DNA of 44,795 nt, from contig JANYHT010000042.1 of assembly GCA_025358925.1 (NCBI GenBank), positions 1 to 44,795 of the forward strand, given 5' to 3'. Every line of letters starts with the position of its first letter. Position 1 is the first letter of the stretch. The position numbers were made by a program, and so were the translations under genes. This DNA is from Gemmatimonadaceae bacterium. GTDB lineage: Bacteria > Gemmatimonadota > Gemmatimonadetes > Gemmatimonadales > Gemmatimonadaceae. Under the pieces are notes generated by a model. The model had not been told where the DNA came from. It ran no database searches and was given only the letters and a program-made list of their open reading frames with translations. Of the stretch, positions 2,234-44,795 are shown piece after piece.

Positions 2234-3310
2234 TCAGACGACGCACATTGCATCCCCATACGAATAGAACCGATACTGCTCGGCCACCGCCGTCCGATAC
2301 GCGTGCATCGTTTGCTCATAGCCTGCAAAGGCCGCGAGCAGCATCAGCAGCGTTGAACGTGGCAGATGAAAATTCGTGATGAGATGATCAACACCGCGGA
2401 ACTGATACGGTGGTCGGAGAAAAATGTTGGTGCCGCGACTGATCGGTTGGATGCGTCCCGATGCATCGGCGGCCGATTCGAGCGTGCGCACACTGGTCGT
2501 ACCCACGGCCCAGAGTTTGCCGCCGCGATCGCGCACGGCATTCAGCGCCTGCGCCGACTCCGCCGACACTTCGCACCACTCTTCGTGCATGATATGCGCG
2601 GAGGGATCATCGTCTTGCACCGGACGAAATGTGCCCGGCCCAACGTGCAGCAAAACATTGACGCGTTGCACCCCGCGCGCTTCGATACGTGCCAGCAGTT
2701 CGGGAGTGAAATGCAATCCGGCGGTTGGTGCGGCGACGGACCCGGATTGATCCGCGAAGACGGTTTGGTAGCGCGACGTGTCGTTCACATCGTCGGCGCG
2801 ATTGATGTACGGCGGTAGTGGAATATGACCGAACTGTTCAATCGCATCGCGCACGTCGCCCTCCGCGTGGAGCCGTACGATGCGTGTCCGATGCGGCGTC
2901 GTCTCGACAATTTCTACGCGAAACCCTGGTGCGATGGTAACCGTACGTCCCGGTCGTAATTTGCTGCCGGGATGCACCATCGCTTCGTAGTGCGTGTCAT
3001 CCACTGGTCGCAACAAGAGGAACTCAGCCGGGCCACCGCTGTCCCGACGGCCAAGCAGTCGCGCGCGAAAGACACGCGTCGTGTTGACGACGATCGCGTC
3101 GTTTGCGGGAATGAGTTCGGCGAGATCGCGAAAGGTGCGGTGCGTGAGCGTGTTTGCCGCTCGATCGAGCACCAGCAATCGACTTCCATCACGCGGCTCG
3201 ACGGGACGTTGGGCGATGCATGCGGTCGGCAGATCGTAGTCGTAGTCGGACGTACGGCTGCCTGCGATGTGGACAGACGAGTCCGCGGAGACTGGTAATT
3301 CTGGGCGCAT
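2234..3310 (-). CDS. queA: S-adenosylmethionine:tRNA ribosyltransferase-isomerase
   Basis: Transfers and isomerises the ribosyl moiety of SAM onto preQ1-tRNA to give epoxyqueuosine. The start at 3308-3310 gives 358 aa, as expected for QueA. Motifs include YDLPTACIAQRPVEPRDGSR, the GGPAEFLLLRP segment, LPPYINR, and the C-terminal NFHLPRSTLLMLLAAFAGYE. An open frame extends upstream to 3631, but it only translates a purine-rich tract, a GCGGAGGC tandem repeat and a trinucleotide microsatellite (giving poly-valine), so it is not part of the protein. The first 25 residues before YDYDLP are somewhat longer than usual and could include non-native sequence. Confidence 0.95.
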   Translation of the reverse strand: MRPELPVSADSSVHIAGSRTSDYDYDLPTACIAQRPVEPRDGSRLLVLDRAANTLTHRTFRDLAELIPANDAIVVNTTRVFRARLLGRRDSGGPAEFLLLRPVDDTHYEAMVHPGSKLRPGRTVTIAPGFRVEIVETTPHRTRIVRLHAEGDVRDAIEQFGHIPLPPYINRADDVNDTSRYQTVFADQSGSVAAPTAGLHFTPELLARIEARGVQRVNVLLHVGPGTFRPVQDDDPSAHIMHEEWCEVSAESAQALNAVRDRGGKLWAVGTTSVRTLESAADASGRIQPISRGTNIFLRPPYQFRGVDHLITNFHLPRSTLLMLLAAFAGYEQTMHAYRTAVAEQYRFYSYGDAMCVV

Positions 3311-3452
3311 TGAGCCGCGAAAGACAATCGGTGACGGAGGGAAGCGCAACGGGGAGAGGGAGATCGCGGGGAGGGAGATCGCAGGGTGCGGGTTCATGCG
3401 AATGGTGCGTGGGTGCGCGCGGCGGGTGATGGTGCGATGACGCGACATCGTA
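3311..3452 (-). repeat. Leader of queA with tandem 15-mer and pyrimidine-rich tract
   Basis: Non-coding stretch between the queA start and the inverted-repeat element. Read on the queA strand it is strongly CCCT-rich. It contains the 12-mer GAGGGAGATCGC (plus strand) twice, at 3356-3367 and 3371-3382, spaced 15 bases apart. It resembles the pyrimidine-rich leaders of ruvB, the aminotransferase and the HNH gene elsewhere in this window. No promoter with good -35/-10 boxes was recognised in it. Confidence 0.6.
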
Positions 3453-3503
3453 AACTGCGGTTTCGCGGAGGCGCGGAGGCGCGGAGGCGCGGAGGACGCG
3501 GAG
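3453..3503 (+). repeat. GC-rich repeat terminus, expanded copy (GCGGAGGC units)
   Basis: Reads AACTGCGGTTTC followed by three GCGGAGGC 8-mers, then GCGGAGGA and CGCGGAG. This is the same sequence as the left terminus of the 382-bp element at 39829-39865, but with extra 8-mer units and without the CA of TTTCACGCG. A shorter copy in inverse orientation is at 4027-4045, so the GxxExxY gene lies between them. Confidence 0.8.
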
Positions 3504-3532
3504 AACAGCAGAAGAACAAGAACAAGGGAAAG

Positions 3533-3630
3533 CACCACCACCACAACAACTACAACAACAACCACCACCACCACAACCACCACCACCACCACCACCACAA
3601 CAACAACCACCACCACCACCACCACCACCA
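3533..3630 (+). repeat. (CAC/CAA)n trinucleotide microsatellite
   Basis: About 98 bp made almost only of CAC and CAA triplets, with a single TAC near 3551. It ends 8 bp before the ATG of the GxxExxY gene. A run of this length is prone to slipped-strand changes. On the opposite strand it reads as GTG/TTG and produces a spurious poly-valine extension of queA. A shorter repeat of the complementary type, (GTT)n, is at 20598-20638. Confidence 0.95.
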
Positions 3631-3638
3631 AAGAAAAA

Positions 3639-4082
3639 ATGGAACTTGACGATATTACAGAGGCAATAGTGCAAGAAGCGTTGAAAATTCACATCGCGCT
3701 TGGGCCGGGATTGCTAGAGTCGGTGTTTGAAGTGGTGTTAGCGCATGCACTCGTGCGGAGGGGTTTTGCGGTGGAGCGTCAAAAAGCGGTTCGTATTCAG
3801 TATGACGGACTTCATTCCGTGGACGGATTCCGCGCCGATCTCGTGGTAAATTCGCGGGTCATCGTGGAGATCAAGTCGCTCGACCGTGTTGCGTCGGTGC
3901 ATTCCAAACAGCTCCTCACCTATCTGCGACTCATGCATTTACCAGTGGGATTGCTGATCAATTTTGGCGAGGCCCTGTTAAAGCAGGGCCTTCACCGCGT
4001 GGTGAACGGGCTCGACCCAGTCACGTCTCCGCGCCTCCGCGTGAACAGATCGTTGGCCGAATGCGCGAAGGCGATTCATTGA
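3639..4082 (+). CDS. GxxExxY protein (PD-(D/E)XK-like nuclease superfamily)
   Basis: 147-aa protein of the GxxExxY family, which shares the PD-(D/E)XK nuclease fold; its biological role is not established. The name motif appears as G24-LL-E27-SV-F30, with Phe replacing the usual Tyr. The putative catalytic elements are D67 in FRADLVV and E77/K79 in VIVEIKS, followed by QLLTYLRLM, a conserved helix. The ATG follows a microsatellite by 8 bp with only a weak A/G-rich ribosome-binding region. Residues 130-136 (SPRLRVN) are encoded by the inverted GC-rich repeat, and the last residues run past it, so the C-terminus is probably not native. The end overlaps the convergent GWxTD gene by 7 nt. It is the only plus-strand gene in this stretch, which suggests insertion. 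Confidence 0.85.
   Translation: MELDDITEAIVQEALKIHIALGPGLLESVFEVVLAHALVRRGFAVERQKAVRIQYDGLHSVDGFRADLVVNSRVIVEIKSLDRVASVHSKQLLTYLRLMHLPVGLLINFGEALLKQGLHRVVNGLDPVTSPRLRVNRSLAECAKAIH
4027..4045 (-). repeat. GC-rich repeat terminus, short inverted copy
   Basis: Plus-strand CTCCGCGCCTCCGCGTGAA. It is the exact reverse complement of a 19-nt part of the left terminus of the element at 39829-40210. It lies inside the 3' end of the GxxExxY gene and supplies codons 130-136. Confidence 0.85.
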
Positions 4083-38604: not shown

Positions 38605-39807
38605 TTACGAGCGCAGCAGCTTCACGGCGCGGCCCACTTCTTTGAACGCGGCGATCACCGTATCCAGATCATCGCGCGTGTGTGCCGCACTCACCTGACA
38701 GCGTACGCGCGCCTGTCCCTGTGGCACCACGGGAAATCCAAAGCCAGTCACAAAGACACCGCGATCCAGCATCATCTCGCTGATACGAATGGCCGTCGCA
38801 GTCTCGCCAACAATGATGGGCACGATAGGCGTTTCGCCGGCAAGCGGATGAAAGCCTGCTTCTACAATTGCTGCGCGAAAGTACCGCGTGTTGTCATGCA
38901 ACCGCGTCACGAGTTCTGGATGTGCGGCGGTGTAACGCACTGCCGCCAGTGAACTCGCGGCCACTGTGGGCGGCAATGCATTTGAAAACAGCTGCGGACG
39001 CGACCGTTGTGTCATCATGTCGCAGAGCGATTCCGGACCGGCGATAAATCCACCCGCAGCGCCACCGAGTGCTTTGCCAAGTGTTGATGTAATGATGTCG
39101 ACGTTGCCCAAAACGCCAAAATGTTCTGCGGTGCCGCGACCTGTTTTACCCAACACGCCCGTGGCGTGCGAATCGTCCATCACGACAATGGCATCGTACT
39201 CGCGCGCGAGTTGCAGGATCTCCGGCAGCTTGGCAATCGAGCCTTCCATCGAAAACACACCATCCGTCCAGATGATGCGCCGCGCTGCGCCGCGCGCACC
39301 GGCCAACTTGTCGCGCAGGTCGTCCATATCGCTGTGCTTGTACACAGCGGTCGTGCACTTCGTGATTGCTTTTGCGAGCCGCACTGAATCAATGATGGAG
39401 GCGTGGTTCAATGCGTCAGACACGACGAAATCGCCTTCGCGCGCGATACTCGGCGTGAGTGCTTCGTTCGCGTTCCACGCCGATACATATGAGAGTGATG
39501 CGGGCGTTCCCACAAAGGACGCGAGCTCCGACTCCAAATCCCGATGCACCGTGAACGTGCCGCAAATAAAGCGAACCGACGCGGTGCCTGCGCCAAACTG
39601 TTCGAGTGCGTGTATGCCTGCGGCGACAACACTGGGTTCGTTCGCTAAGCCCAAATAATTGTTCGACGAAAGGACGATTACTTCGCCGCGCCCCTCCATT
39701 CGGACGCGAGCACCTTGTGGCGACTCGAGAAAATTCAGTCGCTTGTACGTACCGGCGGCTTTGAGCGCGTCGAGTTCGGTCTGGAGATCGGCGGAGAGCG
39801 TGGACAC
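38605..39807 (-). CDS. kbl: Glycine C-acetyltransferase (2-amino-3-ketobutyrate CoA ligase)
   Basis: 400-aa PLP enzyme that cleaves 2-amino-3-ketobutyrate with CoA into glycine and acetyl-CoA, the second step of threonine breakdown. LNFLESPQGARVRMEG, SSNNYLGLANEP, FICGTFTVHRDLE, MDDSHATGVLGKTGRG and the lysine-bearing ITSTLGKALGGAAGGFIAG are those of Kbl and its close relatives. GTG start at 39805-39807; no Shine-Dalgarno is evident. tdh, which makes its substrate, is upstream on the same strand, so a tdh-kbl operon is expected, but a 382-bp repeat element lies between them. The paralogous alternatives (BioF, AlaS-type synthases) are less likely because of tdh. Confidence 0.93.
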   Translation of the reverse strand: MSTLSADLQTELDALKAAGTYKRLNFLESPQGARVRMEGRGEVIVLSSNNYLGLANEPSVVAAGIHALEQFGAGTASVRFICGTFTVHRDLESELASFVGTPASLSYVSAWNANEALTPSIAREGDFVVSDALNHASIIDSVRLAKAITKCTTAVYKHSDMDDLRDKLAGARGAARRIIWTDGVFSMEGSIAKLPEILQLAREYDAIVVMDDSHATGVLGKTGRGTAEHFGVLGNVDIITSTLGKALGGAAGGFIAGPESLCDMMTQRSRPQLFSNALPPTVAASSLAAVRYTAAHPELVTRLHDNTRYFRAAIVEAGFHPLAGETPIVPIIVGETATAIRISEMMLDRGVFVTGFGFPVVPQGQARVRCQVSAAHTRDDLDTVIAAFKEVGRAVKLLRS

Positions 39808-39828
39808 GGGTGGCGATGGTCATGGGGA

Positions 39829-39865
39829 AACGGCGGTTTCACGCGGAGGCGCGGAGGACGCGGAG
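39829..39865 (+). repeat. Left inverted terminus of the 382-bp element
   Basis: 37 nt beginning AACGGCGGTTTCACGCGGAG. It matches the reverse complement of 40174-40210 at 36 of 37 positions. Copies of its core occur at 3453-3503, 4027-4045 (inverse) and 44453-44466 (first part only). Confidence 0.9.
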
Positions 39866-40173
39866 AAAAAACCAAACAAAATTGGAGTCTTCCGTGAATC
39901 TAGGGAGAGGCGCCGGTTGAACAGCAACGCCGAACCGCGAATAACACCAAGGACGCGAATGTGCCTCCGAACAGTATCCGGTTGGATCGCGTGATGCCGG
40001 CATCGCACTGTTTTCATTCAAGGGATAGTGCAACGCTATTTGCCGGTCGACACGTCACCCGCGCTCACACCAACCGAGTTCGCGGCAGTTCGATGGTTTG
40101 CTTTTCTTTGGATTTTCCTAAAAATTCGAGCAACGCCAGTCTGACCGTCGACGCCCCACCGGTTTTGCAGTTC

Positions 40174-40210
40174 CTCCGCGTCCTCAGCGCCTCCGCGTGA
40201 AACCGCCGTT
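40174..40210 (-). repeat. Right inverted terminus of the 382-bp element
   Basis: 37 nt ending CCTCCGCGTGAAACCGCCGT on the plus strand followed by T. It differs from the perfect reverse complement of the left terminus by one base (A at the position of a C). It ends 11 bp before the tdh stop codon. Confidence 0.9.
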
Positions 40211-40221
40211 CCACACCACCA

Positions 40222-41244
40222 CTACAGTTGGAAAATGATCTTCCCCGCTTCACCGGACTTGATCAGATGCATCGCTTCATCAACGGCATCGAGCGGTAGT
40301 CGATGCGTGATGACCGGCGATGGATCAAATGCGCCTGAGCGCAAAAATCTCGTCATCTGATGCCACGTTTCGTACATCCGTCGGCCCACCACGCCGTACA
40401 CGGTCAATCCCTTGAAGATGATCTCCGACGCGAAATCGACATCGATCGTACGTGAGGGGATGCCCAACATGTTTACGCGACCACCCGGTCGTGCGAGTGC
40501 GAATGCTTGATGCACTGCACTCGCTACGCCCGACATTTCAAGCACCACGTCGGCACCATATCCGTCAGATGCTGCGCGCACCGCTGCCTCGGCGTGCTCC
40601 GGCAAGACTGCATCGTGCGCGCCCATCGTACGCGCCAATTCGAGTCGACGCGGATTTACGTCCGTCGCAATGATCCGCGCCGCGCCTGCCGCCTTACAGA
40701 TGCCCACAGCAAACGCACCGATCGGGCCACACCCCGTGATGAGAACAACCGCGCCCGGAATCTCGGCGGTGAGCGCTGTGTGAAACGCGTTGCCCATGGG
40801 GTCGTGAATGCCACCAATGTCGTAACTGATCGCGTCGTCCAAATGCCACACGTTGGTTGCCGGCATCGCGATGAACTCCGCGAAACATCCGTCGCGATCG
40901 ACTCCGATGATGCGCGTGGCCGGATCCACATGCGATTGCCCTGTGCGACTGAACAGCGAGCGTTCGTCGACAATATGTCCCTCGGCGGTTACGCGATCGC
41001 CGACTTTAACGGTTTCAACCAAACTTCCAACCGTGACAACATCGCCAGCGAACTCGTGTCCAACTACAAATGGTGGCTTACAACGACCCGCCGCCCAAGC
41101 ATCCCATTCGTAAATGTGCACGTCCGTTCCACACACGCCGGCACTCCGCACGCGAATAAGGACCTCATCATCGCGTATGCGAGGCTCCGGAACTTCAGTG
41201 AGCGTTATCCCGCGTCCGGCTGACTGTTTGACCAACGCTTTCAC
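40222..41244 (-). CDS. tdh: L-threonine 3-dehydrogenase (structural zinc site absent)
   Basis: 340-aa NAD-dependent medium-chain dehydrogenase that oxidises threonine to 2-amino-3-ketobutyrate. The start MKALVKQSAGRGITLTEVPEP, the catalytic zinc region with C38 (GVCGTDVHIYEWDAW) and H63-E64 (VVGHEFAGD), and the Rossmann motif LITGCGPIGAFAVGICKAAGA fit Tdh. The structural zinc loop is altered: in the segment 92-107 the four cysteines usual in Tdh align with D93, S96, S99 and D107. The GTG start at 41242-41244 has GGAG five bases upstream. It precedes kbl, which uses its product. Confidence 0.92.
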   Translation of the reverse strand: MKALVKQSAGRGITLTEVPEPRIRDDEVLIRVRSAGVCGTDVHIYEWDAWAAGRCKPPFVVGHEFAGDVVTVGSLVETVKVGDRVTAEGHIVDERSLFSRTGQSHVDPATRIIGVDRDGCFAEFIAMPATNVWHLDDAISYDIGGIHDPMGNAFHTALTAEIPGAVVLITGCGPIGAFAVGICKAAGAARIIATDVNPRRLELARTMGAHDAVLPEHAEAAVRAASDGYGADVVLEMSGVASAVHQAFALARPGGRVNMLGIPSRTIDVDFASEIIFKGLTVYGVVGRRMYETWHQMTRFLRSGAFDPSPVITHRLPLDAVDEAMHLIKSGEAGKIIFQL

Positions 41245-43660: not shown

Positions 43661-44443
43661 ATGCCAGAATTGCCAGAGGTTGAGGACGCCGCACGTCGAC
43701 TCCGTGCCGCGATCATCGGCCGCACCTTCGTCACCGCGCGAGCCTTGCATCCATCAACCGGGCGAACGCTCACCGACGTTGCGTGCCAACGGTTAATCGG
43801 GCAGCGGGTGATCAGTGTTGATCGCCGAGCAAAGCTGCAGGTCGTGCGGTTCGCCGATGATCGCGTGCTCGAGGTGCATCTACGGATGACCGGTGACTGG
43901 GACATTGGGCGCCACGACGATCCGGCACCGCTGTACGAACGCGCACGTTTCACGTGCGATGATGGGACCCGCATCTCGTTTGTGGACAGTCGCGCGTTTG
44001 GCGTGCTCACCGTGCATGACCCAGGCGCGTTCAAATTGCCGCTTTACGGGCCGGAGCCACTCGATGCTGACTTCACGGCTGCCGTGCTGTTAAAGGCCCT
44101 GAAGGCGCGACGAGGTCCGATCAAACCAGTACTCCTCGATCAGCGGGTGATTGCTGGATTGGGCAACATCTACGCGGCGGAAGCGCTGTGGGAATCGCGC
44201 ATCCGACCGGACACGCCAGCGAATCGAATTGCTTTAGTTCGCGTGACTCGACTGCGCGACGCTATACGCCTGGTGCTCAGTGAGGCGCCGAGTGCGCGGT
44301 ACTACGAGCGCGAGGAGCGTGTCGAGGAATCGTGGCGTGTGTACGATCGCGAAGGCAAGCCGTGTTTGCGTTGCGTTGCGCCAATTGTGCGCATCGTGCA
44401 AGCGGGACGGAGCACGTTTTATTGTCGACGGTGCCAGCGGTGA
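43661..44443 (+). CDS. mutM: Formamidopyrimidine-DNA glycosylase
   Basis: 260-aa bifunctional glycosylase/AP lyase for 8-oxoguanine and formamidopyrimidines. The mature start PELPEVEDAARRL supplies the catalytic proline; RRAKLQVVRF holds the conserved lysine; LRMTGDWDI, FVDSRAFGVL and LLDQRVIAGLGNIYAAEALW are all typical. The zinc finger is CLRCVAPIVRIV followed by YCRRC at the C-terminus (C-x2-C...C-x2-C). The ATG at 43661 gives an exact PELPEVE start; the frame upstream of it is not coding. Possible short zinc-finger family paralogue Nei is excluded by the PELPEVE and finger pattern. Confidence 0.95.
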   Translation: MPELPEVEDAARRLRAAIIGRTFVTARALHPSTGRTLTDVACQRLIGQRVISVDRRAKLQVVRFADDRVLEVHLRMTGDWDIGRHDDPAPLYERARFTCDDGTRISFVDSRAFGVLTVHDPGAFKLPLYGPEPLDADFTAAVLLKALKARRGPIKPVLLDQRVIAGLGNIYAAEALWESRIRPDTPANRIALVRVTRLRDAIRLVLSEAPSARYYEREERVEESWRVYDREGKPCLRCVAPIVRIVQAGRSTFYCRRCQR

Positions 44444-44452
44444 GAACAGCGT

Positions 44453-44795
44453 TTCACGCGGAGGAACAACGAAAAACGAGAACACAAATCAGATAAAAGT
44501 CGAAGGAAAACCACAAGCAAAAAAATGGGCTCGTCCGGGAATTTCGGGAGAAGCGTCGGTCGAACAGCAACGGCTGACCGCGAATGGCGCGAATAGCGCG
44601 AATGTGTTCCACTCCGGATGCGGCTGGATCGCGTGATGCCGGTCGCGCACTTTTCGCATCGAAACCACGGAAACGCACGGATACCACAACATGCTGTGTG
44701 GTTGCGGTTGCTGGATCGGCGTGATCCGCTTTGTCTCCGTTCAGTGTATCCGTGCCTTCTCCGTTCCGCAGTTTGCTTTTCTTGCGTCTTCGGGG
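44453..44795. mobile_element. Related repeat element, truncated by window edge
   Basis: Ten bases after the mutM stop a GTTTCACGCGGAGG (first half of the 39829-39865 terminus) begins a segment that resembles the interior of the 382-bp element in the same orientation: GGGAGAAGCGTCGGTCGAAC, ACCGCGAATGG, GCGAATGTG, GGATCGCGTGATGCCGG and later GTTTGCTTTTCTT, which is at 40096-40108 in the other copy. The right terminus, if present, is beyond 44795. It has extra A-rich sequence near 44466-44530 absent from the other copy. Nothing convincingly coding is seen. Confidence 0.5.

Follow-up and report, generated by a model that had tools for sequence, protein, structure and literature searches.

A short DNA hairpin that has been copied around the genome of a Gemmatimonadaceae bacterium lies between tdh and kbl, two genes that normally work as a pair, and it appears to be a gene-less member of a little-noticed class of mobile hairpins whose larger relatives carry either a gene for a nuclease-like protein (GxxExxY) or a gene (S23) otherwise known from insertions in ribosomal RNA. 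We give this reading a probability of about 0.7. The window analysed is the whole stretch of 44,795 nucleotides, which is contig C32 of the genome designated here G000; G018 is its sister species, other genomes are numbered in the same way (G), and contigs (C) and sequence loci (L) carry their own numbers. The features of the window are collected in the table.

Table. Positions of the element, its parts and its neighbours in the 44,795-nucleotide window
Positions	Strand	Feature	Observations
39829-40210	.	Element, 382 bp, in the tdh-kbl junction	Of the other 28 junctions read, 27 lack these arms and G018 has a 113-bp version
39829-39877	+	Left arm	Head AACGGCGG, then TTTCACGCGGAG and degenerate 8-9 bp GCGGAG units
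40162-40210	-	Right arm	Inverted copy of the left arm
39878-40161	+	Interior, no gene	Member of a second dispersed repeat family (GGTCGAACAGCAACGGCTGACCGCGAAT...); matches at C31, C66, C18, C43, C53, C62, C71, C29 and at window 44521-44654 (70-82% identity)
38605-39807	-	kbl (glycine C-acetyltransferase), downstream gene of the split operon	Gene name from the sequence-only reading; protein conserved in 29 loci; not searched in a family library
40222-41244	-	tdh (threonine dehydrogenase), upstream gene of the split operon	Gene name as for kbl
3453-4054	+	Second, ORF-bearing element of the same family	Arms 3453-3509 and about 4019-4054; same structure in G018 (L238)
3639-4082	+	GxxExxY ORF, 147 aa, PD-(D/E)XK nuclease superfamily	C-terminus reads through the right arm; TIGR04256 1.3e-36, PF13366 (PDDEXK_3) 4.2e-35

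To check if the element had the structure that the sequence-only reading had described, its termini were compared directly and the whole window was searched for inverted repeats. The first 37 nt and the reverse complement of the last 37 nt differ at one position, and the arms extend to 49 nt at 88% complementarity with 284 nt between them, which makes this the strongest inverted repeat of the window (4 pairs of at least 20 nt in all). The arm core TTTCACGCGGAGGCGCGGAG has 3 hits in the window against 0.01 expected. The gap between the genes is 414 bp, the element lying 11 bp after the tdh stop codon and 21 bp before the kbl start, and no convincing ORF lies inside. Single-stranded RNA of 39820-40220 (-) folds to -190.4 kcal/mol (z = -7.2, 0 of 100 shuffles as good). 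Therefore, the observation of a 382-bp element with 37-bp inverted termini that splits the tdh-kbl pair was correct.

To determine if the termini recur in inverted pairs, the absence of which had been set beforehand as grounds for rejecting the sequence-only reading, the arm core was searched in the own genome and elsewhere. In G000, 31 hits with at most 2 mismatches were found, 16 of the cores being exact, and a control pattern gave 8 hits against 41 at up to 3 mismatches. Paired by position, 11 pairs were + then - within 700 bp, with no neighbour pair of any other order; some of the remaining hits have a more degenerate partner, such as the left arm at window 3453, or lie near a contig start. 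A scan of 84,980 species' genomes for the exact core gave at least 118 stretches, with titles naming Acidobacteriota, Verrucomicrobia, Planctomycetota, several proteobacterial groups, Gemmatimonadetes and others. Of these 118, 72 have + then - arms within 400 bp, 7 have - then +, 7 have same-strand neighbours and 38 have no neighbour, a stretch being countable in more than one class. The exact core also occurs in 32 stretches of a viral contig collection (L382-L413), a possible vehicle, although these stretches were not read. Growth of a local hairpin in place by replication slippage and template switching could be suggested by the tandem-repeat arms, by the extended arms of one locus in G012 (L218) and by bare 32-38-bp hairpins in G018 where G000 has full copies, but it is unlikely, as arm cores at many unlinked places of the genome need copying between loci.

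Within the genus, the core was found at up to 1 mismatch in only 3 of 30 genomes: G000 (26 hits), G018 (16 hits) and G044 (5 one-mismatch hits, none paired), which fits the recent spread proposed by the sequence-only reading. In a survey of 20-kb samples, inverted repeats scoring at least 25 were few: 3 in 400 kb of G020, 5 in 360 kb of G004, 2 in 400 kb of G000 and 1 in 400 kb of four outgroup genomes, whereas shuffled sequence gave none at 20 or above. These hairpins are thus sparse, although the samples were not drawn at random.

The presence of the segment at every tdh-kbl locus of the phylum was the other outcome named in advance as fatal to that reading, and the junction was therefore examined in relatives. 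A search of 41 genomes found the locus in 40 and returned 30 loci, of which 29 had both genes; the junctions of the other genomes were not read. Twenty-one junctions have 5-59 bp between the genes, whereas 8 have gaps of 144-479 bp holding hairpin inserts of more than 100 bp. G018 has a 113-bp hairpin with the same arms and a short loop, and six others (G001, G022, G004, G006, G008 and G017) have gaps of 415-479 bp filled by hairpins of different sequence. On the protein tree the insert label needs 3 changes, and strongly supported branches force at least 2, so unrelated hairpins have entered this one junction more than once.

To compare copies at orthologous sites, joined flanks of 9 own-genome copies were queried in the 30 genus genomes and the G018 places were read. 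Besides tdh-kbl, five sites could be compared on both sides: L063 (660-bp core in G000, a hairpin of about 90 bp in G018), L066 (267 bp against a bare hairpin of about 32 bp), L070 (103 bp against a hairpin of about 38 bp), L072 (present in both, different lengths) and L076 (present in both, similar). L064 had no match, and L065 and L068 ran into contig ends. L061 was left out because its flanks and those of L241 (G000:C16:6438-6974 and G018:C189:2600-3100, with a like element) are 100% identical in two genomes whose kbl genes are 92% identical, which could reflect recent exchange or cross-contamination of metagenome bins. The arms thus stay while the loops differ, and the comparison did not show whether loops were gained in G000 or lost in G018. 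In G018, two copies of one element with nearly the same interior lie in tandem, 162 bp apart, at a contig break (L237 and L240; C343:1-400 and C130:10550-10733).

The interior of the element proved to be a repeat in its own right, which could not be seen in the sequence-only reading. Positions 86-264 of the element match elsewhere in the own genome at 70-82% identity, at places such as C31:20899 and C43:99885 where no such arms were seen, so that a second dispersed repeat family sits in the loop. At window 44430-44795, a second repeat family (GCGAAT-type) runs to the contig end, and its last ~131 bases (44665-44795) recur at the very start of contigs C66 and C18, so the assembly broke inside a repeat.

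Larger copies are not non-coding, which also could not be seen in the sequence-only reading. The second element of the window has the same arms around the GxxExxY ORF, and G018 has a like element with closely similar flanks. The two ORFs show a dN/dS of 0.17, against 0.06 for kbl, so the protein is under purifying selection. In an alignment of 42 sequences, G22, E25, D65, E75, K77 and Y93 are invariant, which fits a PD-(D/E)XK active site. The AlphaFold model (mean pLDDT 88.3) has as its best but weak match SSO0001 (4ic1; Foldseek E 3.4e-3, sequence profile E 0.07), a Cas4 protein; the GxxExxY protein, of about 145 residues, stands alone, and no CRISPR context was examined. A search for sequence relatives in the PDB gave one further hit, ribosomal S4 (E 0.08), taken as chance. 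Between the left arm and the GxxExxY start codon (window 3520-3640) lies a long CAC/CAA microsatellite, which also gives a spurious poly-Val extension of the ORF on the other strand (2234-3631).

To determine if such ORFs are generally associated with arms, complementarity was scored between the 400 bp on either side of each ORF, for the loci returned (about 30 per search) that had full flanks; loci with truncated flanks were left out (4 of 28 in one set), as was L227 from one analysis. TIGR04256 is present in 29 of 30 genus genomes and 33 of 101 phylum genomes, and TIGR02436 (S23, four-helix) in 28 of 30 and 54 of 101. At a score of at least 18, GxxExxY genes had arms at 4 of 26 genus loci and 13 of 18 loci of other genera, against 0 of 52 and 3 of 36 pseudo-positions in the same loci (17 of 44 against 3 of 88 in all), and S23 genes at 14 of 19 and 18 of 24, against 0 of 38 and 2 of 48 (32 of 43 against 2 of 86). 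Pairing left and right flanks of different loci gave 29 of 812, 16 of 342 and 23 of 420. Most genus GxxExxY genes (22 of 26) lack detectable arms and several look like a resident gene, so GxxExxY is not always part of an element, and the G000 and G018 GxxExxY elements were among the weaker scores (15.8 and 18.8). The GxxExxY arms are mostly CACGGAG/CACAGAG/CGCGGAG-type 8-9-mers, several headed AACTGC, whereas the S23 arms are other short tandem units such as GGAGTCA or GTATCAG. In L218 (G012:C69:55525-58875), GxxExxY is flanked by arms over 300 bp long, made of about seven head-to-tail ~46-bp AACGGC/AACTGC units on each side as a concentric hairpin. An outside-to-inside age gradient in long arms, expected if copies insert into the loop, was sought, but no consistent gradient was found.

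The tdh-kbl inserts were then compared with the arms of ORF-bearing elements. The G000 insert matches arms around GxxExxY in G018 and G000 (L204, L211) and in another genus (L265). The strongest single link is in G001, whose ORF-less tdh-kbl hairpin, together with that of G022, matches both arms of the S23-bearing element L281 of G001 at 82-86% identity over 178-241 bp. Thus, in two unrelated hairpin families at the same operon junction, the ORF-less insert shares its arms with an ORF-bearing element: GxxExxY in G000/G018 and S23 in G001.

Occupied and empty sites were also compared for S23. At one orthologous site (site X), 14 genomes were read: the 4 with the S23 ORF (G020, G004, G012 and G044) all have inverted arms, of different sequence, whereas the 10 without it have no inverted repeat scoring 15 or more. 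The ORF is in opposite orientation in G020 compared to G004, G012 and G044 (L414, L422, L423, L427), through either loop inversion between arms or independent insertions. At site Y, just after what reads as the end of rpoC and its terminator, five genomes have S23 and arms (in G041 with an internal stop), and G045 has a decayed ORF and no inverted repeat scoring 15 or more.

To check if structure is maintained, compensatory changes were counted in the hairpins. In the tdh-kbl hairpins of G001, G022 and G004, 29 cells show changes on both sides with pairing kept, against 8.2 (maximum 15) in shuffles, and 42 are broken, against 72 (minimum 60). In contrast, G008/G006/G017 showed 0 double changes, and site Y, counted without L432, which was cut off by its stretch, gave 6 against 2.9 (maximum 9), not above chance. 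Structure is partly maintained, which may reflect selection on RNA or DNA structure, or arm-to-arm copying at the DNA level. A retained regulatory RNA structure of the operon rather than a parasite, kept because the hairpin tunes kbl expression or mRNA processing, could be proposed from these changes, from the long stable fold and from the occupation of the junction by at least two unrelated hairpin families. However, this seems unlikely, as 21 of 29 junctions have no such hairpin, the loop differs freely between sister species (382 against 113 bp), and no promoter-like site was found, nor any terminator-like site on the transcribed strand; the one terminator-like site (mean 0.7 in shuffles) is on the + strand, which is not the operon's strand. 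A function in the operon transcript was not assayed. A search of Rfam 15 gave no match at E of 1 or below in 39500-40500.

One alternative is a conventional MITE, an internally deleted derivative of a DDE transposon moved by a transposase that recognises the arms. The element is short, non-coding and dispersed in multiple patchy copies with terminal inverted repeats, and MITEs such as ERIC and Correia elements are likewise short and often intergenic, with Correia-containing transcripts being cut by RNase III (PMC10969869). A target-site duplication, for which the sequence-only reading had proposed to look, was not found: 2 of 10 copies have a direct repeat of at least 4 nt at matched distance, against a null mean of 1.27, so the act of insertion is unproven. 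The arms are degenerate tandem 8-9-mers, unlike ordinary terminal repeats. No parent transposase was found; one copy (C16:35012-35671, in L063, G000:C16:34900-35780) holds an ORF, translated by eye, that resembles a transposase helix-turn-helix domain (PF01527, HTH_Tnp_1) below the family cut-off, but the recurrent ORFs are GxxExxY and S23, which leaves the existence of an autonomous partner with the same termini undecided. Because no target-site duplication was found, the element was not classed as a MITE, and this explanation is considered unlikely. A REP-like palindrome moved in trans by a RAYT (Y1 transposase) is very unlikely: dispersed hairpins near gene ends resemble REP sequences in position, but PF01797 has no match in G000, which is 96% complete, or in G018, whereas 8 of 30 genus genomes have one.

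In its build, the element is closest to the intervening sequences (IVS) of 23S rRNA, in which terminal inverted repeats form a stem around a loop that may hold the S23/four-helix ORF, in a few hundred bp (PMC4990558). The termini here form such a stem, and the same protein family sits in arm-bounded elements of the phylum. The elements described here lie between and within protein genes, not in rRNA, this copy has no ORF, and a second ORF type is used. As this copy is not in rRNA and carries no ORF, it was not classed as a 23S IVS. PF05635 (S23-type) proteins resemble Avd, the accessory protein of diversity-generating retroelements (PMC10053308); no reverse transcriptase or variable repeat was looked for near these elements. 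Rickettsia palindromic elements are dispersed and can sit in-frame in protein genes (PMC10969869). Their sequences were not compared with ours; the class described here carries ORFs in full copies and its arm core occurs in many phyla. One copy here (L072) lies in the linker of a dihydrolipoamide acetyltransferase-like (E2-type) ORF, named from its translation, with the frame open through the element in both G000 and G018, but the other copies read were taken as intergenic by inspection, so in-frame insertion as a property of these elements is neither established nor excluded. In the PMC literature searched, which does not include subscription papers or preprints, so that absence in print is not shown, no paper joined GxxExxY or S23 genes to dispersed hairpin repeats.

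Taken together, we interpret the 382-bp segment as an ORF-less, IVS-like copy of a mobile, hairpin-bounded element. Its arms are inverted copies of a short head (AACNGCGG) followed by degenerate tandem 8-9 bp GCGGAG units, and they fold into one long stem. The space between them is a variable loop, nearly empty in some copies and occupied in others by another repeat, as here, by a transposase-like fragment or by an ORF, which is GxxExxY in the full copies and S23 (four-helix, Avd-like) in sister families with other arm sequences. The analysis itself demonstrates dispersed inverted pairs, patchy presence, independent hairpin gains at one operon junction, arms shared between ORF-less and ORF-bearing copies of the same genome, and purifying selection on the conserved nuclease-like ORF of the window. 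By contrast, we only infer that the element-encoded protein, GxxExxY here, handles the arm hairpin as DNA or RNA and moves ORF-less copies in trans, and that insertion next to stop and start codons is tolerated because the stem-loop of the tdh-kbl transcript is a substrate for RNase III-type processing, as for rRNA intervening sequences, where cutting in the stem has been shown in vitro (PMC4990558). There is no direct evidence that GxxExxY or S23 acts on the arms, cleavage by RNase III was not measured, and the GxxExxY element itself does not fold clearly better than shuffles (z = -1.55, 20 shuffles). The interpretation given by the sequence-only reading, a short element that had recently spread or kept a function, was thus supported, although it did not foresee the repeat in the loop, the coding relatives or the other hairpin families at the same junction.

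A broader reading is tentative, and we consider it less likely than not. In this view, there would be a general class of bacterial mobile element, built as a hairpin whose arms are fast-changing tandem 7-9-mers and whose loop carries either an S23/Avd-like protein or a GxxExxY nuclease; 23S rRNA intervening sequences would be the rRNA-inserted minority of this class, dispersed motifs such as CGCGGAG, CACGGAT and GCGAAT repeats would be its ORF-less remains, and movement would be directed by hairpin structure rather than by target cutting of the DDE type.

The origin and mobility of 23S rRNA intervening sequences are described as unclear (PMC4990558). The finding of S23-type and GxxExxY ORFs inside hairpin-armed elements at many loci across a phylum, with ORF-less copies splitting an operon, gives a comparative system in which mobility, loop replacement and the role of these two little-characterised protein families can be tested. 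It may also explain a set of dispersed short repeats whose core turns up in many phyla.
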